Source: Pirellula staleyi DSM 6068
GTDB taxonomy: Bacteria; Planctomycetota; Planctomycetia; Pirellulales; Pirellulaceae
Direction of reading: 5' to 3'
Length of the DNA: 35,821 nt
Assembly (NCBI GenBank): GCA_945870455.1
Contig: CAMBSL010000031.1
Location: 1-35,821 of the forward strand
The translations under genes were made by a program, and so were the position numbers. The notes beneath the pieces were generated by a model. That model was not told the origin of the DNA. It ran no database searches and saw only the letters and a program-made list of their open reading frames with translations. Position 1 is the first letter of the stretch. Every line of letters begins with the position of its first letter. Below are positions 7,702-35,821 of the stretch, in pieces.

Positions 7702-7855
7702 CTTTCGCGGAGAGGGGGTCGGGGGGTTAGGGGTAGTGCCCTGAAACAGTAGCCTCCGGTTCAGTTATTTGTTTACCCTTCGGAAACGCAGCTAGACATT
7801 TAATTCACGATCAAAAAACCAATCAAAATACGGTGTAAACCCCTCTCCCCGAGTA

Positions 7856-7896
7856 CAGGGCGAGGGGAGCAAGATCAAAAGGTGTGGGTAAAGATG
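7856..7896. repeat. Dispersed 41-bp repeat, copy 1
   Basis: The reverse complement of this segment matches 18460-18500 at 40 of 41 positions. It includes the CTTGCTCCCCTCGCCCTG core and the ATCTTTACCCACA segment. Both copies lie in gene-free repeat-rich gaps. Confidence 0.85.
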
Positions 7897-7958
7897 AGGC
7901 GTCTCGCCCATGGATTCACGAGCGGGACTCGCGTGCCACGCGATGGTAACCCGACGCG

Positions 7959-18376: not shown

Positions 18377-18674
18377 AAGGACTCTCTTTCCCAAAGTGAT
18401 TTCGAACTTAAGCGGGGGTACGCCATTCTAGCGGATTGCGATGTGATCAACGCGGCTTTCATCTTTACCCACATCTTTTGATCTTGCTCCCCTCGCCCTG
18501 GTCTCCCCTGGTCTCGGGGAGGCTCGCGAAGAGGGGGTTCAAGTATCATCGCCAGGATACAAGGGATGCTCTCATCCCCTCATCCCCAGGCCTTCTCCCT
18601 GGTACTCCGGGGAGAGGGGGGCGGGGGTGAGGGGCTTTACGCCAGCGGTAACCAACCTTCGCCCTAGCAACGCC
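18377..18674. repeat. Repeat-filled gap with dispersed repeat and GC-rich inverted repeat
   Basis: 18460-18500 matches the reverse complement of 7856-7896 at 40 of 41 bases, and is followed by a duplicated 10-mer GTCTCCCCTG. Further right, CCCCTCATCCCC (18576-18587) pairs with GGGGTGAGGGG (18624-18634). No gene is seen. The gap lies between two same-strand genes, so it may separate their transcripts. Confidence 0.75.
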
Positions 18675-19760
18675 TTAACTGACCTTCTTGAGCTTGGTAA
18701 CTCGCCCGGTGCCGACCCATTCCGCCACGTAGATATTGCCTTGGTTGTCGAAGCAAGCGTCATGCGGGTGAACGAACTTGCCGTCCTGCCATTGTTTCTC
18801 ATCGCCGCGAATCTTTTTCCCCTTGTCCGCACTGATTCGCTCCACGTCGCTACCCAGTTCAACGATTGGCTTATAGTTTTTGTCTAAAATGGAAACTCGT
18901 GCCTTGAGTTCGGGCACCAACAACAGGTCCCCTTGTTTGTCGATGTTGGCTGGGAGCCCAAAGCCTGTGATGGTGCGTTCATATTTTCCTTCTAGGTCGA
19001 AGATTTGGAGTGTGTCGTGAGCCCGATCCGTGACCACGATTTTGGGTGCAGCCGGATTGCGATCGTCGATCCAGAGTCCATGCGGTGTATTGAATTTGCC
19101 TTCACCAGCGCCGTCACCACCGAACGACCGTAGCCACTTTCCATCTTTGTCGTAGCGATGGATGTAGAAGGCTCCGTAGCCATCGGCGAGGAAGAATCCG
19201 CCGTCCGGCAAAAAGGCGAAATTAGTTGGCATGAATCGATTGCGCCCCCAAACTTTGGCCGGATTGTCCGCTTCGTCGGAATGGTAAACACCGGATTCTT
19301 TCGGCGCTCGCTTGGTCCAAAGGACTTCGCCTTTCAGATCGAGTTTGGCAAATTCCTTGACTTGCTGGTACGCGGCAACGTAGAGAAACTCTTGATTGCC
19401 TTCTTTGCGGACTTCGATTCCGTGTCCACCACCTTGGTACTGTTTGCCAAAAGCTCGAATGAATTTGCCATTTTCATCAAATACAAAAATGGACGGATGG
19501 TCTTTTTTTGATTCTTGCCCTTCGTGGATGACGTAGAGATTATTCGCTGCGTCGACGGCCACGTTGTGAGTGGTTTGCCACGAGAACTGCGATGGCAATT
19601 GTGGGAAATGGTGGATCACTTCAAATTGGAGATCTTTCTCGCCAACGATGATTTGCGAGTTGGTCCGGCTGGCGGTTGCAATATTCGGGGCAGCAACAAT
19701 TCCTGCAGTAACGGCAGCAGTCGTTTTTAGAAAATCACGACGAGAGGAAGCATTTTTCAA
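18675..19760 (-). CDS. Tat-exported NHL-repeat propeller protein
   Basis: A 361-aa protein starting at TTG (19760), which is preferred because GGAG (19768-19771) sits 7 nt upstream and the product then opens MKNASSRRDFLKTT, a clean twin-arginine signal followed by a hydrophobic AAVTAGIVAA. A longer frame from ATG at 19820 has no ribosome-binding site and would place 20 residues before the Tat motif. The body is a six-bladed NHL-type propeller, with blades such as NVAVDAANNLYVIHEG, FAFLPDGGFFLADGYG, LRSFGGDGAGEGKFNTPHG and HDACFDNQGNIYVAEW. No cofactor-binding cysteine pair is seen. It could be a 6-phosphogluconolactonase-like or peptidylglycine-lyase-like propeller. It is divergent from the glucosidase gene at 19911. 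Confidence 0.87.
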   Translation of the reverse strand: MKNASSRRDFLKTTAAVTAGIVAAPNIATASRTNSQIIVGEKDLQFEVIHHFPQLPSQFSWQTTHNVAVDAANNLYVIHEGQESKKDHPSIFVFDENGKFIRAFGKQYQGGGHGIEVRKEGNQEFLYVAAYQQVKEFAKLDLKGEVLWTKRAPKESGVYHSDEADNPAKVWGRNRFMPTNFAFLPDGGFFLADGYGAFYIHRYDKDGKWLRSFGGDGAGEGKFNTPHGLWIDDRNPAAPKIVVTDRAHDTLQIFDLEGKYERTITGFGLPANIDKQGDLLLVPELKARVSILDKNYKPIVELGSDVERISADKGKKIRGDEKQWQDGKFVHPHDACFDNQGNIYVAEWVGTGRVTKLKKVS

Positions 19761-19767
19761 GGTCGTT

Positions 19768-19771
19768 CTCC
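19768..19771 (-). promoter_or_regulatory. GGAG ribosome-binding site deciding a TTG start
   Basis: GGAG (read on the minus strand) is 7 nt upstream of the TTG at 19760, which puts the Tat motif at residue 7. Confidence 0.6.
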
Positions 19772-19910
19772 GGATGGAAGGGAAGCGGAAGTGGATGTTC
19801 TTAAGCTGGCCTAATATCATAATCGAAACAAGGTGGATTTATTTCGTGGAATCGCCTAAGCTCCTTATTTGGGATTGCTTCTTGAAACTGCCCTTTGCAC
19901 CAATGCTTCC

Positions 19911-22709: not shown

Positions 22710-22777
22710 AGGACACAATGCAATCCGTTCAATCCCATTGAATTTGACCAGAAACGATGAAAAGGAAATAAACCAAC

Positions 22778-23668
22778 TTGAATATTCTTGTCGCCGTAGA
22801 CGACTCTACTTCATCGCTGGAATCCGCGCGCTGCTTCCGCGAACTAACGCATCAAGCAGATTTAAACGCGACCGTCTTGACGGTTGTCGGCCTGCCGAAG
22901 ACAGCATTAACAGAATCCACTGGCCATTCCGTTTCTGAGTTTGTGACCGATGCCATCAAGCACGATGAACACGCTTTTGCATCGGTGGTCAAAATATTCG
23001 AAGGCTCGCAAGCTCATCTTACTCATATCACTCGATACGGTCATGTTGGGCACTGCATCGCTGCCGCCGCCGAAGAGATCAACGCAGACTTGATCGTCGT
23101 CGGCGCCAAAAGCAAATCGCCACACGACCACGTGACTCATGAAAGCGTCAGCGAATACGTCGCGACGCATGCCACCTGTTCGGTCCTGGTGGTGAGCTCT
23201 CGTGCGGCAACTCAACAACAACTCGATCACCCGTTGAGAATTACGATTGCATACGATGATTCCAAAGAATCCAAGGCTGCGATTGAGCAATTTGGATCCT
23301 ATCTTTGGGTCCGGAATGCGGATATTGAAGTTGTATCCGTGGTACCCATTCATACGATCCAGCGCGACGGAATGGATCCGGTAGAACTCCCAAACAGCCC
23401 CTCACTGGTACATGAAGCAACTGCATTCACAGAAAGAGCAGCGAACCAATTGAGATCACAAGGAATCCGAGCAACGTCGAGGGTGGTCGAGGCCAATCAT
23501 ATCGGTTCGCAAATCGCTGGCTTTGCCAAGCAGCACAACTCCGACTTGATCGTGCTTGGCTCGCAAGGCCAAAGTGGCATTGCAAGAATCCTGCTTGGAA
23601 GTACCGCTCAGTATGTGCTTCGCCATTCGGATCATTTGGTATGGATCGTTCGCGAAACGAATGTCTGA
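22778..23668 (+). CDS. Tandem universal stress protein
   Basis: A 296-aa protein with two Usp domains (about 1-145 and 153-293). The start is TTG at 22778, with AAGGAA (22762-22767) 10 nt upstream, giving MNILVAVDDSTSS as the typical Usp opening. The second domain has the ATP-binding motif G-2x-G-9x-G-S/T (GSQGQSGIARILLGST, about residues 268-283). The first lacks it (VVGAKSKSPHDHVTHES), so probably only the C-terminal half binds ATP. Usp proteins are cytoplasmic stress-response factors. It follows the GH63-like gene on the same strand. Confidence 0.9.
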   Translation: MNILVAVDDSTSSLESARCFRELTHQADLNATVLTVVGLPKTALTESTGHSVSEFVTDAIKHDEHAFASVVKIFEGSQAHLTHITRYGHVGHCIAAAAEEINADLIVVGAKSKSPHDHVTHESVSEYVATHATCSVLVVSSRAATQQQLDHPLRITIAYDDSKESKAAIEQFGSYLWVRNADIEVVSVVPIHTIQRDGMDPVELPNSPSLVHEATAFTERAANQLRSQGIRATSRVVEANHIGSQIAGFAKQHNSDLIVLGSQGQSGIARILLGSTAQYVLRHSDHLVWIVRETNV

Positions 23669-23677
23669 TTTCAAAAG

Positions 23678-23806
23678 TGGCATAGGCTTCCAGCCTGTGT
23701 TCGGCACAAGTTTTGTTGCAGCTGCTGGGAGCCAGCATCGAATAAGTTTAGCTTCCAGCCTGTCATTTTCCGCTTGGCAGGCTGGAAGCGCTGGAAGCCT
23801 ATCCCA
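23678..23806. repeat. Compound inverted repeat between convergent usp and phoD
   Basis: Outer arms 23678-23693 and 23791-23806 pair over 16 bp with one mismatch (GGCTTCCAG core). Inner arms 23751-23762 (GCTTCCAGCCTG) and 23778-23789 form a perfect 12-bp stem with a 15-nt loop. The repeat fills almost the whole space between the two stop codons, and could end transcription from both sides although no T-tract is obvious. Confidence 0.8.
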
Positions 23807-23823
23807 CTCAAGCATAGCAACCA

Positions 23824-25392
23824 TCACACCGTTGCGGGCAAATCGATGCTCCATAGATTCTTGCCGGCCGCCGAATAGTGCGTCACAGTCAACGCTCGCG
23901 TTTGCCCATCGATTTTTACCATTCCAAAGAACTGGAACCCATCCGATGGTGGACGATTCGGACGCATTCCATCCGGAATCGACTTGAATTTCAGCTGCGG
24001 CCCGAAGGTGTTGTCGAACTCACCTGGTCCAAACGTTCCCGAATGCAGGGGGCCCGATACGAATTCCCAAAAGGGGTCAAAATCCTTGAAGACGGCCTTT
24101 TCGGGGTCATAGTAATGCGATGCGGCGTAATGAACATCCGCCGTTAGCCATACTGTGTTTTTGATTTGTTGCGATTTGATGAAACGCAACAAATTGGCTA
24201 TTTCCAATTCTCTTCCGAGCGCAGGCCCATCGCCGTTGGCAACATTCTCAAAATCATCCTTGCCATCTCGAACCATTAGCCCGATGGGCATGTCGCTGCA
24301 AATCACTTTCCAAGTTGCCGTGCTGCGTTTGAGCGAATTCTTGAACCAATTCAGTTGCTCAGTTCCCATGTACGCAGTCGCGTCACTACCTTCGGTCTGT
24401 CGATTCGGTGAGTTTGGACCACGATAGGATCGAAGGTCAAGAAAGAAAACGTCCAGCAGAGGTCCGTAAGGTATCGTTCGATAGATGCGGCTATGACCAT
24501 CCGTAGTCGAGCGAATCGGTAGATACTCAAAAAACGCTTGTCGAGCGCGAGCGGCAAGGAGTGAAACGCTTTTGTCACGATAGCGGTTGTCCGACGTGAG
24601 TTTCTCGCCGGGATACCAATTGTTGAGCGTTTCATGATCGTCCCATTGAACGAAACTGGGTATCTCTGCGTTCATGCGACGAACATTATGGTCCAAAAGG
24701 TTATAGCGGTAGTTCGCACGAAATTCGTCGATGGATTCCGCGACTTTGGATTTGCCTTCGGTGGTGATATTTTTCCAGATGCTACCGTCGTCAAGGCGCA
24801 GTTCGGGTTCGATGGGGTTGTCGGCATAGCACACATCACCCGAGTTGATGAAGAAGTCGGGGCTGAGGCATCGAATCGTTTCAAACGTCGTCATTCCACC
24901 TCGCGCAACATCGATTCCATAGCCTTGTCCTGCAGTGTCACCAGACCAAGCAAATCGAACATCGCGAGCTTCGTTGGGAGCGGTGATGAGTCGTCCCGCT
25001 TGTGGTGCACTTAACTTGGAAAGATCCTCTAAATCTTGAAATGTCACTCGGTAGAAAACGGGTTCACCCGGCTTTAGACCGTTAATGCGAAGTTTACCGG
25101 TAAAGTCGGTCGACTCGAGCACGTCTGGTCCCACGATTCTTCTCGAATTCTTGAAGAACTCATTGCTCGCAAGGTCGACGAGCATTCTCGATGACCTATC
25201 CGAACGACTCCAAAGGGTGGCGGACGTAGTGGACACATCGCCAGAGGCGACACCGCATGGGATGTTGGGCCGTTGGCGATCATCTGTGATTTCGTCCGTG
25301 AAATGAGATCGGGCTCGAGGTGCAGCGTAGGCGATGACGCTAAGTTGCGTTAAGAGTCTGTTAAATTTTCGGCGAGAAATCGATTCACTCAT
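23824..25392 (-). CDS. phoD: Tat-exported alkaline phosphatase D (PhoD-like)
   Basis: A 522-aa predicted secreted phosphodiesterase/monoesterase of the PhoD family, which needs Ca and Fe in characterised members. ATG at 25392 follows an AGGGAT-type site and opens MSESISRRKFNRLL, a Tat motif; a longer reading frame upstream is not needed. An N-terminal beta domain (about 40-135, CGVASGDVSTTSATLWSRSD) precedes the metallophosphatase core: WSGDTAGQGYG, INSGDVCYADN, QWDDHETLNNW and the C-terminal TADVHYAASHYYDPEK, which supply metal-ligand Asp, Asn and His residues. Neighbouring genes are not phosphate-regulated by sequence, and no Pho box was identified. Function in phosphate scavenging is inferred from the family. 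Confidence 0.9.
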   Translation of the reverse strand: MSESISRRKFNRLLTQLSVIAYAAPRARSHFTDEITDDRQRPNIPCGVASGDVSTTSATLWSRSDRSSRMLVDLASNEFFKNSRRIVGPDVLESTDFTGKLRINGLKPGEPVFYRVTFQDLEDLSKLSAPQAGRLITAPNEARDVRFAWSGDTAGQGYGIDVARGGMTTFETIRCLSPDFFINSGDVCYADNPIEPELRLDDGSIWKNITTEGKSKVAESIDEFRANYRYNLLDHNVRRMNAEIPSFVQWDDHETLNNWYPGEKLTSDNRYRDKSVSLLAARARQAFFEYLPIRSTTDGHSRIYRTIPYGPLLDVFFLDLRSYRGPNSPNRQTEGSDATAYMGTEQLNWFKNSLKRSTATWKVICSDMPIGLMVRDGKDDFENVANGDGPALGRELEIANLLRFIKSQQIKNTVWLTADVHYAASHYYDPEKAVFKDFDPFWEFVSGPLHSGTFGPGEFDNTFGPQLKFKSIPDGMRPNRPPSDGFQFFGMVKIDGQTRALTVTHYSAAGKNLWSIDLPATV

Positions 25393-25631
25393 TGTTTTAT
25401 CCCTGACGTGATGCCTTTGCAAACGTAGATAGGGGCCATGGATCTGTCTAACTGTCGCTATACAACCGTGTTCGCGGTCATTGCCACATCGACACAAACG
25501 ATCACATCATGGCAAGGGGCAGGAGGGATAGCAAGGGGCCGAAGGAACACACTTACTTGAGGCAATCCGGGCTTGAGGCAATACGCTCAGGCAGATATCC
25601 CGCAGGGGAATCGGCGGCATTCCAATGCCAG

Positions 25632-26155
25632 GCAGATAAATCGCCGATTTGATGTAGTTGGAGTTTGCACGTTACTCCCGCCCGGACAAGCCGGACGGAG
25701 AGCCGAAAGGGAAGACAACCGATTCGAGTTTTGGTGTCCGATGGGTAGCTGTCAATTGTGGCTCCCACGGGGACAAGCCCACGTGGAAAGCAGCCTTTCA
25801 TCCGGGCTTGTCCCAAGGCAGCAAGCAACGTGTGAGGGATTCGTTGCAATTTCCGAAGTTAAAATACAACTTGCTGGTTCAATTGGCCTTCCATCCGGGC
25901 TTGTCCCGATGGAGGCAGCAATTGGCAGCTACAAAAGCTTGAATAAAAGGATAATCATCCTTTTAGCATTGGCTCTCCGTTCGGCTCGTCCGGGCGGAAG
26001 CAGCGTTGCAAGCGAGATCGCTGGCTGTACTGGTTTTTGCAAGCCCATGAATACGAACCGGAGGCGTTGTTAGCGCTGTTTCCGGAAGCTGAGATGCGTT
26101 TAGCGACTATTACGCTCGCGAGAATAACCGAGATAACTGAGGACAAAAAGATGAA
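25632..26155. repeat. Long direct repeat, copy A
   Basis: Matches 35328-35821 in the same orientation. The first block (25632 to about 25815) and the last block (about 25885-26155) align closely, with a different middle in each copy. The repeat contains several REP-like units built on GGACAAGCC and its complement GGCTTGTCC, in alternating orientation (for example CCCGGACAAGCCGG at 25681), a small hairpin AAAAGGAT-AATC-ATCCTTTT at about 25948-25967 and the transposase-like reading frame below. Copy B lies about 9.7 kb to the right. Confidence 0.9.
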
Positions 26156-26192
26156 TGACGCCCGCCTGTCGAGCGCGATCGCAAGCCAGTGA
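26010..26192 (+). pseudogene. C-terminal remnant of Rpn-type (PD-(D/E)XK) putative transposase
   Basis: An open frame without a start codon reads KRDRWLYWFLQAHEYEPEAL and continues through a TEDKKMNDAR segment to TGA at 26190-26192. The WLYWF...EYEPEALLALFPE...ITE.K block resembles the C-terminal part of Rpn-family recombination-promoting nuclease/putative transposases, which are abundant in planctomycetes. The nuclease core that should precede it is absent, since upstream sequence is REP-like repeat. The frame is open leftward for some residues (GRKQRC) and then merges with repeat sequence. Likely non-functional. Confidence 0.6.
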
Positions 26193-26233
26193 AAAAACTT
26201 AATCGACGCGAATTGAGCTGCGTCCGCTGCGTC

Positions 26234-26262
26234 CTCTTTTTGCTTTCCTCTTTTTGCTTTCC
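26234..26262. repeat. Tandem CTTTTTGCTTTCC motif, left of the subtilase
   Basis: CTTTTTGCTTTCC occurs at 26236-26248 and 26250-26262. The exact reverse complement occurs twice beyond the other end of the subtilase gene (30532-30544, 30551-30563). Confidence 0.75.
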
Positions 26263-26285
26263 TGGCATAGGTGCATGAGAGGCAG

Positions 26286-29200
26286 TTATATCAAACTTCC
26301 CAATTCGAACTTCGTACTTTCTTCTCCGCTCTCCTGCCGATTGTCAATTTTGCCAAAGACCATAAGGTTGAGAGTTCCAAACTTAACCCTTGTTGAATCA
26401 AGCGCCTTGTCCAGACCAGCGACATAAGCCGCCCCGTTAAGTTTGGACGACGCTTGGTGAGTCTTGATCGATGCGACACCTGTTTCAATAGCTCGGACAC
26501 GAAGGGTGAACAGCCCAAGCGAGTTATCTGCTTGTGTTGAGTCCAATGACAGTCCACCTAGATTTTGAAGCCTATTTGATGAGTTCGCATTTGAAGAAAG
26601 TGATTCCACATTGACAACTTGTAACCCGCGAGACAAGAGGACGTCTGCATAGGCACCGTAAATCGCCCGCCCGTTGAGTTCCTTTGCGCTTCCAGTGACG
26701 AAAAACTCTTTGCCAGCTTGAATCTTAGTGATTGCGTTGCCGGAGAGGTCAGTTGCGTTAAGGTCGATTGAGACTGATGCGTCCACGGTGGTTCCCCCAC
26801 CAGCAGATCTTTGCCCTCCAGCATTGAGGTAGTTGATAACAATCAAAACGTCTGTCGGCGAAATGAAGGTGTCGTTGTTCACATCGTAGTATGGTGGTGG
26901 TGCCGCAGGTAGGTTTGGGTTTCCCACAACGGAGCCCGATCCGAAGGCATTGATGAAGTTGATCACATTGAGGACGTCAATTGGCGAGACGAATCCATCT
27001 CCGTTCACGTCAACATTTTTCACCGGGTTTTGCCAAGATATCACCCTCCATGACTCGACAAGATTCCCAAGGTTGGAAAGAGAATTACCCGCTAGATCTG
27101 TTATTCCAGAGGTGGACGTATTGAGCGTCAAAGAGTAGTTGCCGAGGGCTGCGGTGATCGGGTCCAAATTGGAAAGCGTCCAACCGCTACCAATGATACT
27201 AACTGATTGCGCGCTTGATAAAACGTTGGCACCAGAATTTCTCTGTAAAGTTACATCTGATAAGTCGAATCCGGTGATCGAGGTCTCCGAAAAGTTGAAG
27301 TTGTAGGTGCTGATTGAATTCAACCGCGGATCTGGAGAAACGGAGGGCAGCGAGACGTTTGGCGCGACTGTGTCGTAAGTAATGCTCAATGAAAAGCCCG
27401 TGGATGACGCATTACCTGCTTCATCTAACGCGAACAGTTGATACAAATTCGATCCTTGCTGAGAAGGTGTGCCCGTCGACAAGAACGAATTGTTTGTAAA
27501 GTAGTCCGCAATCACTTGTCCATTACGAAGCAGCCGCAAATAAGGGGCAGCACCACTTGCGGAAAGAACTGGAGCGAAACGCGTTACATTGTCCGAATCT
27601 GAAAATCCGCTATCCGAGCTTGGTAGCAAATCCAAGAATCCGCCAAACGTAGGAGCGACAGTGTCTATGGTGAACCCAAGTAAAGGTGAGCTGAAGGATT
27701 GAGCAGCAGTACTGCTTGACGAGAAGGTCACGCTCGCTTGGTAAAATCCGCTTGCCAATGCACTTCCAGTATTAAGCGAGTAGTTGGCTATCCCAGAAGC
27801 CAATTGAATGAAGTTTCGAACTTGGCCGTTAACGAAAAGGCGAACATAGCTCCCCGCTGGAGCGGTGCCGACAAACGTTGGAGTACTTACAGCAGTATAA
27901 TTGTCCGCACTGGATGCTCCTGAGTCACTCGAGAAAAGCAAGTCGGGGGCCGTGGGTGGCGTGAACGTAGAGTAGATTGCGGAAAGTCCATCCACAAAAC
28001 CAGACCCTGTTTGCAAATCGACACCTGGAGCCGCCATGTCAATCGCTGTCGACGTGAGCGTCGCTAAGATTTGTGCGGGAGTGGCGTTGGGACGAGATTG
28101 TCGGATAAGTGCCGCTAAACCCGCAATATGAGGAGCAGATGCGGACGTCCCAGCAAAATTAGGGAAAACATCTGTGTCTGCAGCGCTGTCGACTCCAAAA
28201 AAGGTGTTGTTGACATTGTCTGGTCCCACGATGTCAGGGGTTTGACGAACTAGTGGCTGCGCAAGTGCAACACCTTGATTGTTGAACAAAATGGGAACGC
28301 CTCCCAATGCAGAATAAGACTGGACCAGTGGCGGGTTTCCAGTAACCAATGCGTTGGAAGCACCAACGGAAATAGCCCCTGCCGCATTCGTGTGCCCCCA
28401 TGCTGTTGAACTCGCGGTGCCAAACTCGTTGATCCTAGCGTTCGCACTTGTGATCACGTACTTCATACGCCCTAAACCGTTGACATTGAACCCCGCGATG
28501 GCAACGTTCAATGTTAATGCAGCAGCTGCGGCCGGAATCGTTAAAATTTCAACCGGGTCTCCTCCAATCCGGGACGTGGTACTTGCGAACAATAGGTTTG
28601 TTCCGGCAGCATCATAAACCAGCAAATCGAGATCTCGCAGTGTTCCCGTTGAGCTGGGTGCAACACTTCGAAACGGATCCTGCCATTGCAGAACAATATC
28701 AATAGCCGTATCTCGAGGAACCGTAATGGACTGAAATGCGTCTATTCCTGTTCCTGTATCAAAGTCCATGAGCGAGACAAGTCCGCGTCCGTAGTTGCGG
28801 GATACGTTGCTTGCGGTGAAACCTGTTCGTTCAAAGGATCGGTTTCCATAGTTGCCAGCTGCGGAAACGTACGTCGCTCCTTGAGCGATTACGGAATCAA
28901 CTTTCTGTGCCACCAAACCATCCATAAACATTGGCTCAGCAAGGTAGATAATATCGTCTACGATGATTCTCGCGCCATTGTTGTACAAATTCTGAATATT
29001 GTTTGAGAAGTTCAATTGACCACCCTCAGCTGTCGCAAAAAGGAGGTTTGCGTTTGGTGCCACGTCATGTACGATTTGCAGCATGGCGCGGCCCTCGTCA
29101 GTCGCGATGCCTGCGACGCTATCCGCGACCACACGTACTGTCGAGAGGTCATTCGAGAGAACGTCCGCACTTGCGCCTCCCAGTCGATTGAAGCTATCCG

Positions 29201-30212
29201 AAAGGACGCCGACTGACTGACCATTGCCCTGTAGTGAAAATCTATTGCGAGCTTCGTTGGTTTTCATCCGACTATCACCTTGACTGTCCGTCCTGCCAAC
29301 CATGCTAACGGCTTTAGTCTCGGCTGTTGCAAAAGTGAGTTCTGGAATCGCGCCGATTTGCGAAAGGGTGTTGATTGGAACCCAAGCGTTCACGGCATAC
29401 TCGTTTACTCCCGTGATGGTCGCCCCCATCGGTAACAATCTCTTGACCAGATCTGCGCCCGAATGGCTGGCGCTTACCGCCAGGATGAGTACTTGGTCGC
29501 CCTCCACTTGGTATACGTCATCCCCTTGCGCTATCGCCGAATCTCCCACAGAATCCCCTTGCGCTATCGCCGAATCTCCCACAGACTTAATCCGCAATTC
29601 CGTATCGCGCTGCGATATACTCCTCAAGTTTAGGCTTAGTTTCGGACTCCAATCAGCGGCGTTTGCATGTAATGCTGCCTGAGACGCGACCACTTGCCTT
29701 GACGATGCCAAATCTGAACTCACAAGAGCAGATGAAGCAAAGTTAATGGATGCGGAGTTAGAACCAAAACGCATGTCCTCAAAGTATACATAGCTCACGT
29801 GTGTTAGGCTTTTCAGATCGTTTAGCGAAGCCAATGAAACCCAGGCACTGATGCGATCCTCGATCGAAGCTACAACGTCTACTTGGAGAGGTGCCAGTTC
29901 TTGGAGCATCGACTCCAGATTCTCAGAATTCGAGACAAACACGAGTAGCGTACGTCCATCCTGAATACTTACTCTGCGGTCTTGGGACTGAATAAACGGT
30001 CCATGTCCAATTTCAGACTTACCCCACTCATCGAACTCCCAGGCCAATCGTGAAACATCAACCGACACTTCAGCGTCGAGATAAGAATCAGGTGGCGGTC
30101 CCAGGTAAAAATTGCCGTCTCCATCAAACATTCTTCTTGATTCTAAACTTTCGAGAACCAATGCCCTTTTTCTACGGCGTTGTAAGGATGGTTTTAGCGA
30201 CTGGCGTGACAC
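26286..30212 (-). CDS. Exported S8-like subtilase with dockerin domain and Glu in place of catalytic His
   Basis: A 1308-aa exported protein. The start is GTG at 30212, with AGGAG (30220-30224) 7 nt upstream; a longer TTG-started frame from 30266 is less supported. The N-terminus has the ALVLESLESRRMFDGD form of the planctomycete LEPR-XLL motif. A subtilase domain follows: SVGVLSDSFN (catalytic Asp339), DEGRAMLQIVHDVAP (Glu373 where HGTxVA normally gives His), SAAGN (oxyanion Asn454) and GTSASAPHIAGLAAL (Ser690). Then come at least two Ig-like beta domains and, near the C-terminus, two dockerin-type calcium loops (DVNGDGFVSPIDVLNVINFIN and DVNNDTFISPTDVLIVINYLN). The final ~130 residues are beta-rich and resemble a cohesin-like/surface domain. 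Residues about 211-232 hold an exact 11-residue duplication. Confidence 0.88.
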   Translation of the reverse strand: MSRQSLKPSLQRRRKRALVLESLESRRMFDGDGNFYLGPPPDSYLDAEVSVDVSRLAWEFDEWGKSEIGHGPFIQSQDRRVSIQDGRTLLVFVSNSENLESMLQELAPLQVDVVASIEDRISAWVSLASLNDLKSLTHVSYVYFEDMRFGSNSASINFASSALVSSDLASSRQVVASQAALHANAADWSPKLSLNLRSISQRDTELRIKSVGDSAIAQGDSVGDSAIAQGDDVYQVEGDQVLILAVSASHSGADLVKRLLPMGATITGVNEYAVNAWVPINTLSQIGAIPELTFATAETKAVSMVGRTDSQGDSRMKTNEARNRFSLQGNGQSVGVLSDSFNRLGGASADVLSNDLSTVRVVADSVAGIATDEGRAMLQIVHDVAPNANLLFATAEGGQLNFSNNIQNLYNNGARIIVDDIIYLAEPMFMDGLVAQKVDSVIAQGATYVSAAGNYGNRSFERTGFTASNVSRNYGRGLVSLMDFDTGTGIDAFQSITVPRDTAIDIVLQWQDPFRSVAPSSTGTLRDLDLLVYDAAGTNLLFASTTSRIGGDPVEILTIPAAAAALTLNVAIAGFNVNGLGRMKYVITSANARINEFGTASSTAWGHTNAAGAISVGASNALVTGNPPLVQSYSALGGVPILFNNQGVALAQPLVRQTPDIVGPDNVNNTFFGVDSAADTDVFPNFAGTSASAPHIAGLAALIRQSRPNATPAQILATLTSTAIDMAAPGVDLQTGSGFVDGLSAIYSTFTPPTAPDLLFSSDSGASSADNYTAVSTPTFVGTAPAGSYVRLFVNGQVRNFIQLASGIANYSLNTGSALASGFYQASVTFSSSSTAAQSFSSPLLGFTIDTVAPTFGGFLDLLPSSDSGFSDSDNVTRFAPVLSASGAAPYLRLLRNGQVIADYFTNNSFLSTGTPSQQGSNLYQLFALDEAGNASSTGFSLSITYDTVAPNVSLPSVSPDPRLNSISTYNFNFSETSITGFDLSDVTLQRNSGANVLSSAQSVSIIGSGWTLSNLDPITAALGNYSLTLNTSTSGITDLAGNSLSNLGNLVESWRVISWQNPVKNVDVNGDGFVSPIDVLNVINFINAFGSGSVVGNPNLPAAPPPYYDVNNDTFISPTDVLIVINYLNAGGQRSAGGGTTVDASVSIDLNATDLSGNAITKIQAGKEFFVTGSAKELNGRAIYGAYADVLLSRGLQVVNVESLSSNANSSNRLQNLGGLSLDSTQADNSLGLFTLRVRAIETGVASIKTHQASSKLNGAAYVAGLDKALDSTRVKFGTLNLMVFGKIDNRQESGEESTKFELGSLI
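29521..29586. repeat. 33-bp in-frame tandem duplication inside the subtilase gene
   Basis: 29521-29553 and 29554-29586 differ only at the last base. The duplication adds an extra 11-residue unit with GDSAIAQGDD-like sequence to the protein. Confidence 0.9.
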
Positions 30213-30219
30213 GATCGAA

Positions 30220-30224
30220 CTCCT
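30220..30224 (-). promoter_or_regulatory. AGGAG ribosome-binding site deciding a GTG start
   Basis: AGGAG on the minus strand is 7 nt upstream of the GTG at 30212. Confidence 0.65.
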
Positions 30225-30531
30225 AACACAACAGTTACGGAAGAAATGCTTAAAATCAGCTTCCAATCAGTTTGCTCTTTTCTCTTGAAAATATCAATAC
30301 GATTGCAACCTTCCCGTAGCCGTTTTTTGCAAAAAAGAAACTCGCGTTATTTGGAAGACAGTCCGTTTTTCAATTTAACGCCAAAACGATCTTTCCGGAC
30401 AAGATGCCTTCTTTTCGGACGGTGCTGGCATCCTGACCAACGGGAAGAGAGGCCTCCCATCGCGACCCGCCATCAAAATCATGCGCCCAGGTTGGGTCAT
30501 GGCTCCCACCGACAATTCGAAGTCCAAAGGG

Positions 30532-30600
30532 GGAAAGCAAAAAGTGGACGGGAAAGCAAAAAGGACGGACCGGCAATAAGGGATTGAGCTTTTGCTTTCC
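30532..30600. repeat. GGAAAGCAAAAAG repeats, right of the subtilase
   Basis: GGAAAGCAAAAAG occurs at 30532-30544 and 30551-30563, then the near-complement CTTTTGCTTTCC at 30589-30600. The two tandem units are inverted relative to 26236-26262. Confidence 0.75.
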
Positions 30601-30621
30601 CACTGGTTGTCGTGGACGCTT

Positions 30622-30714
30622 ACGCCAATGCGGCAAGTGTCGCTCATAACGACGGATCGGCAGATTCTCGTCCAGTCCTCGAAAGTTAGGAGGTGCAGGA
30701 AGATTAAAAGTCAT
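30622..30714 (-). pseudogene. N-terminal remnant of REP-associated tyrosine transposase (RAYT)
   Basis: From ATG at 30714 the frame reads MTFNLPAPPNFRGLDENLPI and then RRYERHLPHWR. RYxRHLPHWR is, from memory, the usual opening of planctomycete RAYT/IS200-like transposases, which continue into a YFVTFRLADSLP block. Here that block is missing, and the frame runs into unrelated sequence after about 31 residues. The catalytic HUH and Tyr motifs are gone. A REP-like palindrome lies 23 nt away. Confidence 0.6.
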
Positions 30715-30736
30715 TCAAGGTTCTCCCTGCGGAGGA

Positions 30737-30796
30737 TGGGACCATTGTCCCGTCCGTTAAAAATTTCCGAATCAAAAGCTCGGGACAATGGTCCCA
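30737..30796. repeat. REP-like palindrome, perfect 16-bp stem
   Basis: TGGGACCATTGTCCCG (30737-30752) is the exact reverse complement of 30781-30796, with a 28-nt loop. It lies between the RAYT and HsdM remnants. Confidence 0.85.
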
Positions 30797-30798
30797 AG

Positions 30799-31080
30799 CT
30801 ACGGTTCCAGCAATGCAGTCAGCGCGTCCATCTCCTCCATCGCTGTTACGAGTCGTTCTCGAATCATGGCAGTGATGGGATCTGGTTCGGGGAGTTCGTC
30901 ATGGTTGCTTGCGTTCTCGTCTTTCAGCCAGTTGATGTCGAGGTTCTCGCCTCGCTTCGTTAGTTCATCGCGATTGAAACAGCGGAAACGGCCTTCTTCC
31001 CCTTGATCGGTTCGCTTGCTGGTTCCGTCGGACTTCTTTCCGTGCACTTTCTCGAACTCGACGAAGTGGTCGTGCCTCAA
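30799..31080 (-). pseudogene. Orphan C-terminal fragment of type I methyltransferase (HsdM)
   Basis: 93 codons, opening with a TTG and with a stop seven codons upstream. The segment FRCFNRDELTKRGENLDINW followed by LKDENASNHDELPEPDPITA and AMEEMDALTALLE matches the C-terminal end of N-6 DNA methylase (HsdM) subunits of type I restriction systems. All catalytic parts (SAM-binding FxGxG, NPPF) are missing and no hsdS or hsdR is nearby. It is a relic of a lost or moved type I system. Confidence 0.75.
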
Positions 31081-31245
31081 AGTTGGTATACTAGTTAACT
31101 ACCTCGGAGTCTCTCTCACGGATAGAGCCAGGTCCCGCCAAGGCACTTTCCTGCCAAAATTTCCTCCCTCCCATGTATTCCCCCCATTTATTCCCTCTCG
31201 GCGCGCGAGTCGCTCATTAGATCCTGTGCGGAACAAAACAAGCCT

Positions 31246-33861
31246 ATGAAGAACTTGATGTTCACCATTCTGCTGGTCATCACCGGCGTCTGCACCAATC
31301 TGGTAGCGGATGATCGCGAGACACTCACTTTGCAGCAGGCCAACGAGGTGGGACGCACGAAGTCTAGGTTCCTAAAAGGGGTGGACGTAGAGGAAACGGT
31401 CGCTGAAGCCATTCCAACGGCGAACGTTGCCAACTATCAAGAGTCGGTGGGAGCGATCCTGAACAAAAACTGCTTAGCTTGTCATGGTCCCGAAAAGTCC
31501 GAGGGCAGACTTCGAGTCGACGAACTGAATTCTGACCTGCTAACCGGCCCTGACGTGGAACGATGGCGCGAGGTCTACAACGTTCTCAGCAACTCAGAGA
31601 TGCCGCCCGACGACGAACCTGATTACGCACTGGCCGACGCGGATCGCGGCAAAATGGTTGATTGGCTCAGCGCCGAACTGAATAAAGCGTCTCTCGTTCG
31701 TCGTAACACCCAAGAGCACTCGTCGTTTCGCCGGCTGACGAAATACGAATACAACTACGCCCTGCAGGATCTGCTTGGTCTACCCTATGCCCTTGCAAAT
31801 AAGCTGCCGCCCGAAACCGTATCGGAGGACGGTTTCAAGAATAGCTCCGAACTGCTACAGATGTCTATCATGCAGTTCGAGAACTATCGTGAGATTGGAC
31901 TGCAGGCGCTAAAGCGAGCCACCGTCAGCGGTGAGCGGCCTGAGCCTGTCACTTACATCTTCTCAACACAGGAAGAGATGGAGAAGCTGACGGCGGGAGA
32001 CAATTCCAAGACATTCGATGCGAAGGATGAGAGCAACCGTAAGCAAAGAAAGCAACAATATTTGTTGAATCGGGAGACCGGCAAGGGCATTCCATTTTCC
32101 GGTGGAAAGCTGATGCCTCGGCCCGAGGCCGTTGTTGGGCTGTCGCCGGCTGTTTCTCCGGTTGTGCATATTCTTCACCGAAACAACGAGCTGAAACTGG
32201 ATCTTGATCGCTTTCTGCCCGACGAAGGCATCCTGCGCGTACGCATTCGAGCCGGACGCTCGACGATGAACCCTGACGAGTATGCTAGCTTGCGTCTGAT
32301 TTTCAGTGCCCACACCAGCAATAATGCCAACTTCTCACAAGCAATCAGTGAGCATGACATCCCTGTTACGGCATCCGGCGACAATCCCGAGTTTATCCAC
32401 TTCGATATCCCGCTCAGCGATATTCAGCGTAACCCATTCCGGAAACTCATTACCACGTTTCCAAGACGGGATGAGTTCCTGCACATTCGAAATGTCTCCA
32501 ATGCGCCCGGCGGGCAAGAAGGTCTGCACGTTCTGATCGACACCATTGAGATCAGTGCTCCATTCTACGAACAATGGCCGCCGAAATCTCACACCGACAT
32601 ATTCTTTGCAAGCGACAACAAGAGCGATGAAGCGGTCTATGGCCGCGAAGTGTTGAACCGATTCCTAAAGCGAGTCTGGCGGCGCCCTGTCGGATCGCAG
32701 GAACTCGACCAGTTCATGGCTCTGTTTGTGAAGTACCGGCCAGAATTCTCGACGTTCGAAGATGCCATGCTGGAAGTCTTGGCGACAACGCTGGCCACTC
32801 CGGAATTCCTCTACCTGATTCAAAGAACAACGACCGGCGAGACGCAAGGCCCGACAGGCCCGACAAAAATCAGTGAACTCGAATTTGCCAGTCGACTCTC
32901 GGTGTTTCTTTGGTCAAGTATTCCTGACGAAGAGCTGTTGCAGGTTGCGGAGCAAGGAACGATACGAAACCCCGAAGTACTAACGGCTCAGGTCGAACGC
33001 ATGCTGGCAGACCCGCGTTCAAGACGATTCTCTCAGAATTTCGTTCAGCAATGGCTGGGGTTGGATACCCTGAACAATCTAACTCATGTCAAAGACGACT
33101 CGTTGAAAGAAGCAATGCAGGAAGAGCCGATTGCTTTCTTTGATGAAGTTCTGCGGCACAACCACAGCATCATGGACTTCATCCATTCCGATTACGCGAT
33201 GGTCAACGAGCCCTTGGCGGCACACTACGGGATTCCAAAGGTCTATGGCCCTCACTTTCGTCAAGTTTCGATCGAGCCTCAAACGAATCGTGGCGGTCTC
33301 CTGACGGGTGCTGGCGTCCTAGCCATGAACTCGGATGGCAAGGATTCGCATCCGCTGAAACGAGGCGTCTGGATGCTGAAACGCATCCTTCACGATCCAC
33401 CCCCTCCACCACCGCCGAATGTTCCGGAGGTGGATCTGACGGATCCGGAGATTCTGAAAATGACTCTGAAAGAACGGATCGCAGATCACCGGAACAAAGC
33501 GGCCTGTGTGTCGTGCCACTCAAGAATTGATCCTTGGGGGATCGCTTTTGAAAGCTACGATGCCATGGGAACTTACCGCACGCACGTGAAGAACGAGCCA
33601 GTGGATGCAACTTCAGAATTGTTCAACAAGCAGACGCTGGCCGGGATGGATGGGCTCAAGCGATATTTGCTCACGGACCGACAGGATCAAATTGCCCAAG
33701 CCATGGTGCATAAGATGACCGCTTATGCTCTTGGCAGACCACTCTCGTTTGGCGACAGTGCTGACATTGACAACTTGACCGGACAGTTCATGAGAAACGG
33801 CGCGGGCCTCGGCGACCTGATCCACCTGATCATCCGCAGTAACATTTTCAACTCGAAGTGA
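31246..33861 (+). CDS. DUF1592/DUF1588/DUF1585 cytochrome-domain protein
   Basis: An 871-aa exported planctomycete protein. The signal peptide is MKNLMFTILLVITGVCTNLVA. Domains in order are a planctomycete cytochrome-like domain with CLACH (76-80) and EGRLRVD; DUF1587 (SSFRRLTKYEYNYALQDLLGL); a beta-rich middle domain; DUF1595 (VLNRFLKRVWRRPVGSQEL); DUF1592 (ELEFASRLSVFLWSSIPDEE); DUF1588, with RGGLLTGAGVLAMNS, a Pro-rich DPPPPPPPNVP stretch and CVSCHSRIDPWG as a second CxxCH; and DUF1585 (MVHKMTAYALGRPLSFGD). Function is unknown in the family; two CxxCH sites suggest haem binding in the periplasm. It forms an operon with the DUF1552 gene 16 nt downstream. Confidence 0.93.
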   Translation: MKNLMFTILLVITGVCTNLVADDRETLTLQQANEVGRTKSRFLKGVDVEETVAEAIPTANVANYQESVGAILNKNCLACHGPEKSEGRLRVDELNSDLLTGPDVERWREVYNVLSNSEMPPDDEPDYALADADRGKMVDWLSAELNKASLVRRNTQEHSSFRRLTKYEYNYALQDLLGLPYALANKLPPETVSEDGFKNSSELLQMSIMQFENYREIGLQALKRATVSGERPEPVTYIFSTQEEMEKLTAGDNSKTFDAKDESNRKQRKQQYLLNRETGKGIPFSGGKLMPRPEAVVGLSPAVSPVVHILHRNNELKLDLDRFLPDEGILRVRIRAGRSTMNPDEYASLRLIFSAHTSNNANFSQAISEHDIPVTASGDNPEFIHFDIPLSDIQRNPFRKLITTFPRRDEFLHIRNVSNAPGGQEGLHVLIDTIEISAPFYEQWPPKSHTDIFFASDNKSDEAVYGREVLNRFLKRVWRRPVGSQELDQFMALFVKYRPEFSTFEDAMLEVLATTLATPEFLYLIQRTTTGETQGPTGPTKISELEFASRLSVFLWSSIPDEELLQVAEQGTIRNPEVLTAQVERMLADPRSRRFSQNFVQQWLGLDTLNNLTHVKDDSLKEAMQEEPIAFFDEVLRHNHSIMDFIHSDYAMVNEPLAAHYGIPKVYGPHFRQVSIEPQTNRGGLLTGAGVLAMNSDGKDSHPLKRGVWMLKRILHDPPPPPPPNVPEVDLTDPEILKMTLKERIADHRNKAACVSCHSRIDPWGIAFESYDAMGTYRTHVKNEPVDATSELFNKQTLAGMDGLKRYLLTDRQDQIAQAMVHKMTAYALGRPLSFGDSADIDNLTGQFMRNGAGLGDLIHLIIRSNIFNSK

Positions 33862-33877
33862 GCGTTAAGAATAGACG

Positions 33878-35275
33878 ATGAATAACAAATCCGCTTCCTT
33901 GAACCGTAGAACATTCCTTCACGGCACCGGCTTGGCTCTGGCTTTGCCGTGGTTCGAATCGTTTGCTGCGGCCAGCTCGAATCCTGACGAAACACCAAAA
34001 CGTTTTGTCAGTGTCTACCACCCTGATGGTGTGGGTCTGCCACTTAAATCAGACCCGGCTTGGAAGGATTGGAGCTGGTTTCCTCGGGGCGGCGAAGAGG
34101 ATTTCGAATTGACCAAAGTGCTCGACGTGCTTGAGCCTTTGCGCAGCGACATCACGATTTATTCAGGGCTGTCACATCCCGCATCGAGACGAGTGCATGG
34201 CCATTCCAATGCAGATCAGTATTTGACTGGCGCGGCAACCGGTGGTCACGGTCCCTATGCGAATTCAATCTCTCTCGATCAGGTGTATGCGGAACACGCG
34301 GGAAATCTCACTCGACACGCTTCTCTGGTCATGTCGACCAACGGCGGTGTTGGCGGTCCTCGCGGCGCGCAGACTCAGTCCTTCAACCGTGAAGGACGGC
34401 CGATTCCAGCGATGAATAAGCCAAAGCAAATCTTCGATATGCTGTTTGTGACCAGCAGCAAAGATGCAGCCGCCCGACTGGCGAGAAGCAAGAGTGCCCT
34501 GGATCTGCTCATCGAGAATACGCGATCGCTAGGACGGCAACTCTCCAGCCGCGATCAGGAGACGCTCAAGCAATATCTTGACGCAGTGCGTGATACCGAA
34601 GTGAAGCTGGCCAAGGCTCAAAGGTGGATCGATACGCCCGTTCCCGAGGTTGATACCCGCAACCTGCATCTGGATGCCGAGCCTAAAGAAGCTAGGCTTT
34701 ATTTCCAGACGATGTATGAACTGATCTACCTCTCCTTCCTGAGTGATTCAACTCGCGTGGCGACGTTCCAGCTGGGAAGAGAAAACGGCGAGGGTCCACA
34801 CGACCTGTTGTCACAAGCCGTTGGCCTGGGTGGTGCTCACGGTCTGACACATGACGTCAAAGCGCCCGATGGATGGAAAAACCTTGGTACGTATAATCGT
34901 TATCAGGCCGAGGAATTCGGTCGCTTCGCTCAAAGACTCAAGGAGACACCGGAGCCGACTGGTAAAGGCAACATGCTGGACAACACCCTTGCGCTGCACG
35001 GCTCCGCCTCTAGCAGTTTCCATCTCTCTCGCAATTATCCGATTATTTCTGCGGGTGGTTCGAACTTCGGTTTCACCAACGGCCGGTATTTGAAGTTCGG
35101 CAAAGGAAATGAAGACAATCAGGCCGGCGCAGGAATCGTGACGGATGCCGGATGGCAAGGCAATGTTGAAGTGGAAGAGCTGCCTCTGGCGAAGCTCTTC
35201 GTCACCATCCTACAAAGACTTGGCGTCGAGACCGATTCGTTCGCTGGCGAAACTGGAACGTTGAGCCGAGTGTAG
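33878..35275 (+). CDS. Tat-exported DUF1552 protein
   Basis: A 465-aa protein of the DUF1552 family. The N-terminus has a twin-arginine-like signal (LNRRTFLHGTGLALALPWFES), giving export. The body shows family blocks (SVYHPDGVGL, SGLSHPASRRVHGHSNADQYLTGA, RDTEVKLAKAQRW, STRVATFQLGRENGEGPHDL). Function is unknown; the family is found almost always next to DUF1592 genes in planctomycetes, which is the arrangement here with a 16-nt gap. The two products are therefore likely partners in one envelope process. ATG at 33878 is the natural start. Confidence 0.93.
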   Translation: MNNKSASLNRRTFLHGTGLALALPWFESFAAASSNPDETPKRFVSVYHPDGVGLPLKSDPAWKDWSWFPRGGEEDFELTKVLDVLEPLRSDITIYSGLSHPASRRVHGHSNADQYLTGAATGGHGPYANSISLDQVYAEHAGNLTRHASLVMSTNGGVGGPRGAQTQSFNREGRPIPAMNKPKQIFDMLFVTSSKDAAARLARSKSALDLLIENTRSLGRQLSSRDQETLKQYLDAVRDTEVKLAKAQRWIDTPVPEVDTRNLHLDAEPKEARLYFQTMYELIYLSFLSDSTRVATFQLGRENGEGPHDLLSQAVGLGGAHGLTHDVKAPDGWKNLGTYNRYQAEEFGRFAQRLKETPEPTGKGNMLDNTLALHGSASSSFHLSRNYPIISAGGSNFGFTNGRYLKFGKGNEDNQAGAGIVTDAGWQGNVEVEELPLAKLFVTILQRLGVETDSFAGETGTLSRV

Positions 35276-35327
35276 AGTCTAACTCAACGGGTTTCGAGCC
35301 AATCGCCGTAAGGTCGGAGTGTAACAA

Positions 35328-35821
35328 GCAAATAAATCGTCGATTGGATAACGTTGGAGTTTTCACGTTACTCCCGCCCGGACAAGCCGGACGGAGAGCC
35401 GAAAGGGAAGACATACGATTCGAGTTTTGGTGTCCAATGGGTAGCTTTCAATTGTGGCTCCCATGGGGACAAGCCCACGTGGAAAGCAGCCTTCCATCCG
35501 GGCTTGTCCCGATGGAGGCAACAATTGGCAGCACGCACAGATGCGATCAGCCTTCCATCCGGGCTTGTCCCGATGGAGGCAGCAATTGGCAGCTACAAAA
35601 GCTTGAATGAAAGGATAATCATCCTTTTAGCATTGGCTCTCCATTCGACTCGTCCGGGTGGAAGCAGCGTTGCAAGCGAGATCGCTGGCTGTACTGGTTT
35701 TTGCACGCCCATGAATACGAACCGGAGGCGTTGTTAGCGCTTTTTCCGGAATCGGAGATGCAATTAGCGACGATTACGCTCGCGAGAATAACTGAGATAA
35801 CGGAGGACAAAACGATGTACG
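35328..35821. repeat. Long direct repeat, copy B (runs off the window)
   Basis: Same-orientation match to 25632-26155. Compared with copy A, the middle contains a duplicated GGGCTTGTCCCGATGGAGGC unit with a short insertion around 35528-35550. The right end is cut by the window edge. Confidence 0.9.
35674..35821 (+). pseudogene. Second Rpn-type transposase-like C-terminal segment (partial at window end)
   Basis: Reads KRDRWLYWFLHAHEYEPEAL, then an LFPESEMQLATITLARITE block and TEDKTMY, and leaves the window. It is closer to the usual family text (LHAHEY, EDKTMY) than copy A, so it may be the less decayed copy. Its upstream part is again replaced by REP-like repeats, so an N-terminal nuclease core is absent within the window. 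Confidence 0.55.

Follow-up and report, generated by a model that had tools for sequence, protein, structure and literature searches.

Two direct repeats on a Pirellula staleyi contig probably belong to a repeat-rich site of gene turnover and are unlikely to be the ends of one transposon

Do two repeats lying about 9.7 kb apart on one contig form the ends of a composite transposon, or do they mark a place where genes come and go? The window, that is the whole stretch of DNA analysed here (35,821 nt), is the entire contig C31 of a Pirellula staleyi draft genome (G000), and the contig end falls inside the second repeat. A composite transposon is built from two IS copies with a transposase gene, at least one intact. 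An earlier note, written from the sequence, had read the locus as such a layout or as a recombination-prone island. The repeats that it described are real. Copy A (25,613-26,164) and copy B (35,325-35,821) have the same orientation and share two stretches that align without gaps, one of 200 nt (90%) and one of 268 nt (95%), at distances of 9,696 and 9,664 nt; the gapped alignment gives 86% identity (E = 2.4e-179). The subtilase, the HsdM and RAYT scraps and the DUF1592 and DUF1552 genes said to lie between them were also confirmed by Pfam, plasmid records and the loci of relatives. The features of the locus are as follows.

25427..31076, no strand: lineage-specific block, absent at the locus in G016; homology to G016 stops at 25,426 (C221) and resumes at 31,077 (C150)
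25590..25667, + strand: left part of copy A, rpn 5′ flank; 84.8% to the region upstream of the intact C16 rpn, 81% to G009:C118
25668..26009, no strand: palindromic REP/TIR element of copy A, with inverted ends CTCCCGCCCGGACAAGCCGGACGGAGAGCC
26007..26161, + strand: rpn relic of copy A, starting at residue 171 and ending just past an internal ATG; tblastn 90.6% against C16 Rpn residues 171-223
26162..26262, + strand: right half of M2 (second dispersed repeat) with CTTTTTGCTTTCC tail, adjoining the cut rpn relic of A; tails compared
26286..30266, - strand: large subtilase with Big_13 and dockerin domains (Pfam; Peptidase_S8 4e-14)
30519..30566, - strand: CTTTTTGCTTTCC tail in inverted copies, across the subtilase from M2; 32-nt inverted pair, 81%
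30619..30714, - strand: N-terminal RAYT scrap that matches G016:C307 and G023:C54 over 32 residues (75% and 78%)
30730..30803, no strand: REP-like inverted pair of another type, GGGACAATGGTCCC; 23-nt inverted repeat, 87%, 28 nt apart
30799..31080, - strand: HsdM C-terminal scrap, 93 aa, matching plasmid records
31246..33861, + strand: DUF1592-family protein with cytochrome-like domains (Pfam PSD4 5.7e-40)
33878..35275, + strand: DUF1552 protein (Pfam HXXSHH 6.7e-69)
35325..35363, + strand: left part of copy B, rpn 5′ flank; 89.7% to the C16 upstream region
35364..35673, no strand: palindromic REP/TIR element of copy B, one ~60-bp unit duplicated
35671..35821, + strand: rpn relic of copy B, residues 171-220; tblastn 96% against C16 Rpn; ends at the contig end, which is not a real border

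Both repeats are composites of rpn 5′ flank, a palindromic REP/TIR element of ~250-340 bp and the rpn C-terminus, with the element in place of rpn codons 1-170. An intact 298-aa Rpn is encoded on C16, where it matches PDDEXK_2 (4e-51) and fits the Rpn model TIGR01784 (1.4e-35). Its C-terminus (residues 171-223 in A, 171-220 in B) is the sole coding match found in the two repeats, and the tail of A by itself has no match in Pfam or NCBIfam. The earlier note had each repeat ending in a C-terminal Rpn frame; both contain the frame, but only in A is its end a true one, at about 26,161 where M2 starts, B being cut by the contig end. The element of A carries an internal expansion of about 85-90 bp relative to the shortest copies, and the two repeats differ in length from these by about 60-90 bp. 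Its boundaries recur in copies on C132 and G016:C60 that lack rpn sequence. Folded as DNA, the element of A reaches -91.1 kcal/mol (z = -8.86), and none of 100 shuffles was as good.

Inverted copies of the element flank a Y1_Tnp ORF on both sides on C132 (Pfam 1.9e-7), an ORF which fits transpos_IS200 below the cut-off and has no REP_Tyr_transpos match. A Y1_Tnp ORF on G020:C29 (1.2e-10) likewise stands between two element copies, the left piece matching about equally on both strands, while on G016:C60 the Y1 ORF is broken by the contig end and the element is visible on one side only. The sequences of the Y1 ORFs hold HVH and HIH motifs. This palindromic element from planctomycetes, whose candidate Y1 transposase is found in three genomes of the genus, is probably of the REPtron/TIRtron kind already known; the gene is a candidate solely by virtue of flanking the element. 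In its nearest complete form the element occurs as two copies with an IS200-like Y1 (HUH) transposase gene between them, and from this arrangement the element was most likely placed in rpn by a single-strand Y1 transposase acting in trans. About 540 bp of the ancestral rpn, namely codons 1-170 and the last part of the 5′ flank, would have been replaced in the process.

The two-copy picture of the earlier note holds in so far as A and B exist, but the genome contains more copies. A third composite lies on C86, in a different context, and pieces of the element occur on C132 and ten further contigs. Both joints are common to A, B, C86 and G016:C150 (the left joint judged against intact rpn), so the three composites of G000 may be copies of one event. 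The composite is rare, with three copies in G000 and one in G016; a search for the right joint (<=3 mismatches) found the three in G000 and none in the 148 other family genomes drawn, G016, with one, being outside the draw. A fixed-length REP pattern, blind to units with other spacing, matched 19 sites in G000 and 15 of the 27 genus genomes (reversed control: 3 matches in 3 genomes). As for what follows B, the last 31 bases of C31 (<=2 mismatches) match only C31 itself, C16 and C86, the latter two with 2 mismatches each; both matches are internal to their contigs, and therefore no overlap names a neighbour of C31.

The DNA between A and B contains further repeats. M2, about 225 bp where whole (judged by eye), has 12 matching places in G000, including 26162..26262, 11 in G016 and 4 in G009, some of them short and partial. 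Considered as a repeat linked to rpn, it precedes rpn genes or fragments by about 125-305 bases, in inverted orientation, at six places on five contigs (C153 twice, C66, G009:C137, G009:C1, G016:C21), and 3′ of an rpn gene on C39 and C11 (on C11 as a 20-base match). Five other M2 loci that were fetched (C57, C370, C201, C384, C3) have no rpn match, seven rpn loci (C16, C224, C206, C266, C305, G009:C144, G016:C92) have no M2 match, and the rpn locus of G009:C118 has a distant partial M2 only. The CTTTTTGCTTTCC motif occurs at 4 sites in the window (<=3 mismatches) against 0.41 expected, and the GGGACAATGGTCCC-type REP-like repeat has dispersed matches in several relatives. The RAYT scrap resembles a 261-aa ORF on G023:C54 that matches REP_Tyr_transpos at 7.8e-18, below the model's cut-off. 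The HsdM scrap has no match in Pfam or NCBIfam; it is matched by 31 plasmid records, and among the eight listed (46-56% identity) seven are annotated 'N-6 DNA methylase' and one has no annotation. All 27 genus genomes match some part of the subtilase, the best outside G000 being 31% over residues 294-874 in G021.

Two relatives were examined in detail at this locus; these genomes are drafts, in which copies may be hidden. The DNA of G016 is ~95-96% identical to that of G000, and its B occupies the corresponding position after the DUF1592-DUF1552 operon, beside DUF1552 (G016:C150 11,888-12,596). Neither A nor the subtilase and scraps, the left 5.65 kb, are present at the G016 locus, where the adjacency of C221 and C150 is based on a 25-bp shared end and a sulfatase frame continuing across. 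The right border of the missing block, 31,076, falls 4.2 kb short of B. The subtilase was considered as a counterpart of the G016 genes and rejected, G016 having a sulfatase and a DUF4011 helicase there. When the G016 helicase, transporter and CoA-transferase were sought in G000, the matches listed lay in repeats or outside those genes, with the exception of one 48-base match which is window 31,077-31,124 itself. In G009 the 3′ end of PhoD is followed by the helicase and then, across about 204 bp of unmatched DNA, by the transporter; most of PhoD, the operon and B are absent, no composite remains, and the operon sits elsewhere (C46, 79%). The sequence after PhoD is different in each of the three genomes (G000, G016, G009).

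Taken together, these data suggest that the locus is probably a turnover site rich in repeats, with A and B two members of a small dispersed family and not ends that moved together. At least three repeat families (the element, M2 and the second REP-like type) and the RAYT scrap are located after PhoD. RAYT/IS200-type palindromic elements are the probable recombination substrates; the strong single-strand fold of the element supports the reading as a whole. Since the contents differ in the three genomes, recombination or illegitimate joining near the repeats may have swapped whole genes in and out. The recombination-prone island of the earlier note therefore stands in this wider sense, several dispersed repeats lying inside 25,427-31,076, but not at its edges: the G000 loci fetched gave no repeat lying precisely at 25,427 or 31,076, which counts against repeat-driven exchange at those points. 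That note had set scattered copies with unchanged gene content against its own proposal; copies are indeed scattered genome-wide, but gene content does change between strains. The B relic differs from the C16 rpn at 5 of 135 bases and from its positional counterpart in G016 at 10 of 135 (raw counts, significance uncomputed), a nearness that supports a recombination-prone site. Recombination between A and B, or of either with further copies of rpn, would be possible, although no A-B recombinant was seen.

A possible but somewhat doubtful alternative is that, compared with G009, the operon and B were themselves inserted (6.4 kb in G016 for about 204 bp), B forming the right border and M2 repeats lying to the left, and that the G000 lineage acquired A afterwards. 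The close spacing of helicase and transporter in G009, where G016 has M2, operon and B between them, and the location of the G009 operon on another contig are in keeping with this. On the other hand, no duplicated target and no end common to both sides were seen, and no B copy adjoins the operon at the loci fetched from G021 and G009:C46. Moreover, loss in G009 is equally possible, because G009 also lacks most of PhoD here.

We regard it as improbable that A or C86 is a chimera assembled at a repeat. The draft consists of 386 contigs, C31 ends in B, and C86 has a regulator (AAA_lid_14, HTH_8) on one flank and on the other a porphobilinogen deaminase, a flank found beyond B in G016; all of this would fit an assembly error. 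Yet A and B are of unequal length and show 10 differences over 253 element bases, and therefore they are not one collapsed copy; A also lies inside its contig, between PhoD that matches G016 and DNA unmatched in G016.

Same orientation, high identity and an intervening gene block notwithstanding, it is highly improbable that A and B form the two ends of a single mobile element which brought the 9.7-kb block as a unit, given that G016 has B and the operon in place without A or the left 5.65 kb, that a third composite lies in another context, that the coding match in both is the Rpn C-terminus without residues 1-170, that no target duplication is visible by eye and that rpn genes are not autonomously mobile according to the part of PMC10327210 drawn on here. 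With B present in G016 without A, and G009 without operon and B, the repeats appear not to have arrived jointly, and on this sequence comparison A and B are unlikely to be two ends of one transposon. Inspection by eye of the joints between G016 and G009 showed neither a target-site duplication nor a clean empty site, so that transposition of the element or composite is at most presumed; for A there is no empty site to compare, because a G016 sulfatase gene occupies its place. A deletion between A and B, which the earlier note had envisaged, should leave one hybrid copy, and none was found in G016 or G009, so this proposal was rejected along with the composite transposon. On a draft contig, dispersed repeats of the REP type can be mistaken for transposon ends, and here the genome of one relative argues against that appearance.

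Returning to the turnover site, the rpn relics raise a further, unlikely idea: that the palindromic element made a free-standing antitoxin cassette out of an rpn toxin-antitoxin gene. The cassette would have lost the larger nuclease part, kept the predicted internal ribosome site, start and RpnS-like C-terminus, and spread to new loci, with its RpnS frame still selected there. Rpn toxin-antitoxin genes carry an internal antitoxin, RpnS (PMC10327210, in part). C86 and G016:C150 have GGAGG, 8 nt, ATG and GEIK repeats, a predicted internal start; copy B has GGAGG and ATG but is broken by the contig end, and copy A has TGAGG and is broken after the ATG, its RpnS-like frame lost. Between C86 and G016:C150 the frame shows 13 synonymous and 4 non-synonymous differences (dN/dS 0.08, a weak and confounded test). 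Its synonymous divergence (13/56) is far above the divergence of the adjoining element (7/253), and therefore the frame may have come by swap from intact rpn genes. In a literature search for RpnS as an orphan antitoxin, the works listed were mostly unrelated. If true, mobile palindromes would create orphan antitoxins out of rpn defence genes.

Among known systems, the locus resembles a composite transposon in having direct repeats around a gene block, but no recognisable whole transposase gene was found in A or in B (B being broken by the contig end), and ends and cargo have not moved together. The intact C16 gene is like other Rpn genes, and copies differ in their C-terminal four-residue repeats; unlike Rpn genes, A, B, C86 and G016:C150 lack residues 1-170, the larger part of the N-terminal PD-(D/E)XK nuclease, which is present in C16. 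As in REPINs and BIMEs, closely spaced REP hairpins of opposite orientation make one long hairpin, but here the copies are few and the units vary by ~60-bp duplications. Unlike single REPs the element is longer (about 250 bp at least), with hairpins bearing an ACAAG loop. The part of PMC5350276 consulted mentions neither Planctomycetes nor inverted repeats. REPtrons and TIRtrons are RAYT or TIRYT tyrosine transposase genes with flanking REPs or inverted, partly self-complementary repeats, and R. baltica has a plethora of such genes and flanking repeats (PMC3733652, in part). The element described here is like these, with a Y1/HUH ORF between inverted copies of a palindromic repeat (C132, G020:C29), pieces of which are also scattered elsewhere.

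The assembly studied (G000) is a draft of 386 contigs and 5.84 Mb, and the window is the whole of one of them, C31. The two direct repeats in the window, A and B, are real: ungapped cores pair 25,629-25,828 with 35,325-35,524 (90%) and 25,886-26,153 with 35,550-35,817 (95%), and the gapped match (E = 2.4e-179) is far above chance. The earlier note had each repeat close with an Rpn frame. The frame is present, but its end in B is no border, because the contig end cuts B.

An alignment of A, B, a copy on contig C86 and one in a related genome (contig C150 of G016), together with element copies from elsewhere and two intact rpn loci, revealed a composite of three parts, namely an rpn 5′ flank, a palindromic element and the C-terminal end of rpn (residue 171 onwards). 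The left joint was read from the locus comparison, as the intact loci aligned poorly in their 5′ flanks. Relative to the intact gene on C16 (298 residues; PDDEXK_2 4e-51; Rpn model TIGR01784 1.4e-35), the element stands in place of approximately 540 bases, from the 5′ flank through codon 170. It is about 253 bases long in the C86 and G016 composites; that of A is expanded internally, and in B about 60 bases are duplicated. Folded as single-stranded DNA, the element of A reaches -91.1 kcal/mol, while 100 shuffles average -53.2 (z = -8.86). An ACAAG loop closes its hairpins, with each short core matched in folding by 2-5 of 200 shuffles.

A 581-base query (25,600-26,180) returned 30 matching rows in G000, some of which are one place counted again, read from the other strand or split up. 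Two composites lie on C31 and one on C86; C132 carries copies of the element, C16 has rpn sequence lacking it, and fragments of the element are spread over C80, C246, C38, C214, C2, C151, C21, C224, C13 and C11. Matches occurred in 13 of the 40 genomes searched (G000 included), mostly as short element pieces. The element-rpn joint (up to 3 mismatches) was found three times in G000 and not in the other 148 family genomes drawn; G016, outside that draw, has one joint in the composite alignment. A fixed-length REP core pattern matched in 15 of 27 genus genomes, with 19 matches in G000, against 3 for the reversed control in all 27. A and B are members of a dispersed family in which a truncated rpn gene contains a palindromic REP/TIR element.

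The gene orders at the locus are as follows, M2 being a second dispersed repeat (about 225 bp where whole) and that of G016 presupposing the joining of its contigs C221 and C150.

G016: PhoD, sulfatase, M2, DUF4011 helicase (1,602 aa), M2 copies, DUF1592-DUF1552 operon, B, GntP/CitMHS-type transporter, CoA-transferase
G009: PhoD 3′ end (134 bp), M2, helicase, about 204 unmatched bases, transporter, CoA-transferase
G000: PhoD, A, half an M2, subtilase, scraps (RAYT N-terminal and HsdM C-terminal remnants), operon, B

Window 18,575-25,426 corresponds to C221 (95%) and 31,077-35,532 to C150 (96%), with copy B in place. The two contigs are probably neighbours, since their ends have 25 bases in common in joining orientation and C221 ends within a sulfatase frame that continues 67 codons into C150. 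As the G016 matches end at 25,426 and restart at 31,077, the lineage-specific block comprises:

25,427-31,076, the whole block
from 25,590, copy A
26,162-26,262, half an M2
26,286-30,266, subtilase
30,519-30,566, inverted M2 tail motif (4 sites window-wide, where 0.41 would be expected)
also within the block, the RAYT scrap, another REP-like pair and the HsdM scrap

A composite transposon spanning A to B, as had been proposed, fails on this comparison: B is in place in G016 and homology breaks only at 25,427-31,076. Of the proposed recombination-prone island, a repeat-rich, gene-swapping interval stands, with borders shifted to 25,427 and 31,076. No repeat was seen at these exact borders among the fetched G000 loci, and no A-B recombinant in the loci compared. 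Both operon and B are missing from the locus in G009, where the operon lies on another contig (C46, 79%); no copy of B adjoins the operon there or in G021 (81%). The helicase, transporter and CoA-transferase of G016 gave only repeat matches among those listed in G000, their absence being uncertain because that genome is 92.5% complete.

The subtilase has a LESRRMF-type N-terminus, a planctomycete extracellular signal motif, and in 26 genus relatives, beyond G000 itself, its best match reaches 31% identity. Its 3′ end and the bases beyond (26,261-26,348) match G015, G020, G022 and G023 (82-90% over 41-88 bases) and are perhaps another dispersed piece. M2 is found in inverted orientation at six places on five contigs (C153 twice, C66, G009:C137, G009:C1 and G016:C21), about 125-305 bases upstream of other rpn genes or rpn fragments; on C39 and C11 it lies on the 3′ side of an rpn gene. 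A 47-nt inverted repeat (7,851-7,897 and 18,459-18,505, 94% complementary) recurs at the G016 and G009 places matching its second arm.

Composites differ from one another by 1.6-4.0% in the element, 11-23% in the 35-base 5′ flank and 3.7-7.4% in the relic, the rpn remainder. Between A and B, 10 of 253 element and 7 of 35 flank bases differ (Fisher P = 0.0017); the flank being short and gapped, this is only a hint that the copies are homogenised or the element constrained. Copy B has a relic that is 5/135 bases from the C16 rpn and 10/135 from its positional counterpart in G016, which would fit gene conversion from an rpn gene.

GGAGG, 8 bases and an ATG (C16 Rpn residue 219) precede the C-terminal part in the two intact rpn genes, B (with one difference ahead of the ATG), C86 and the G016 composite; A has TGAGG. 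The number of GEIK-type repeats differs between rpn copies, as in RpnS (PMC10327210). In the C-terminal part, C86 and the G016 composite show 13 synonymous and 4 non-synonymous differences by codon alignment (P = 5e-6 against neutrality), and 14 differences in 249 bases by nucleotide alignment, which places the repeat gaps otherwise. However, synonymous divergence there is greater (13/56) than divergence in the adjoining element (7/253), so this part may have been swapped with intact rpn genes after the composites formed, and the selection signal may belong to those genes. In this part dN/dS is 0.33 for the intact C16-G009 pair and 0.08 for the composites. In the upstream relic no clear signal emerges between the C86 and G016 composites (2 synonymous, 3 non-synonymous, P = 0.29), but one does between A and C86 (5 synonymous, 1 non-synonymous, P = 0.002), though A is without the C-terminal part. 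Elsewhere, open frames on G018:C98, G018:C53 (beginning at the contig edge), G005:C432 and G024:C119 fit the PDDEXK_2 model in its C-terminal part only, and are possible orphan RpnS-like genes. PDDEXK_2 matches, several of them fragments, number 11 in G000 and 2-6 in seven relatives searched.

A candidate transposase for the element is suggested by a 276-residue ORF (Y1_Tnp 1.9e-7) between inverted element copies on C132. An ORF 83% identical to it on G020:C29 (Y1_Tnp 1.2e-10) is flanked on either side by element pieces, of which the left one fits both strands almost equally; on G016:C60 the contig end cuts the ORF, leaving the element visible on one side only. Another transposase ORF adjoins the C86 composite (REP_Tyr_transpos 2.5e-9, Y1_Tnp 0.0018, both below cut-off). 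A RAYT-like transposase unit on C86 (L084, 1,735-3,166, about 1.43 kb), whose ends recur, is matched many times in G009 and G021 among the rows listed. These matches frequently fall where a contig ends, and the pattern suggests an IS-like element present in many copies, not one domesticated RAYT. Among the matches listed for REP terms with Pirellula/Rhodopirellula, no title names the element of A and B; REPtrons and TIRtrons have already been described, many of them in R. baltica (PMC3733652).
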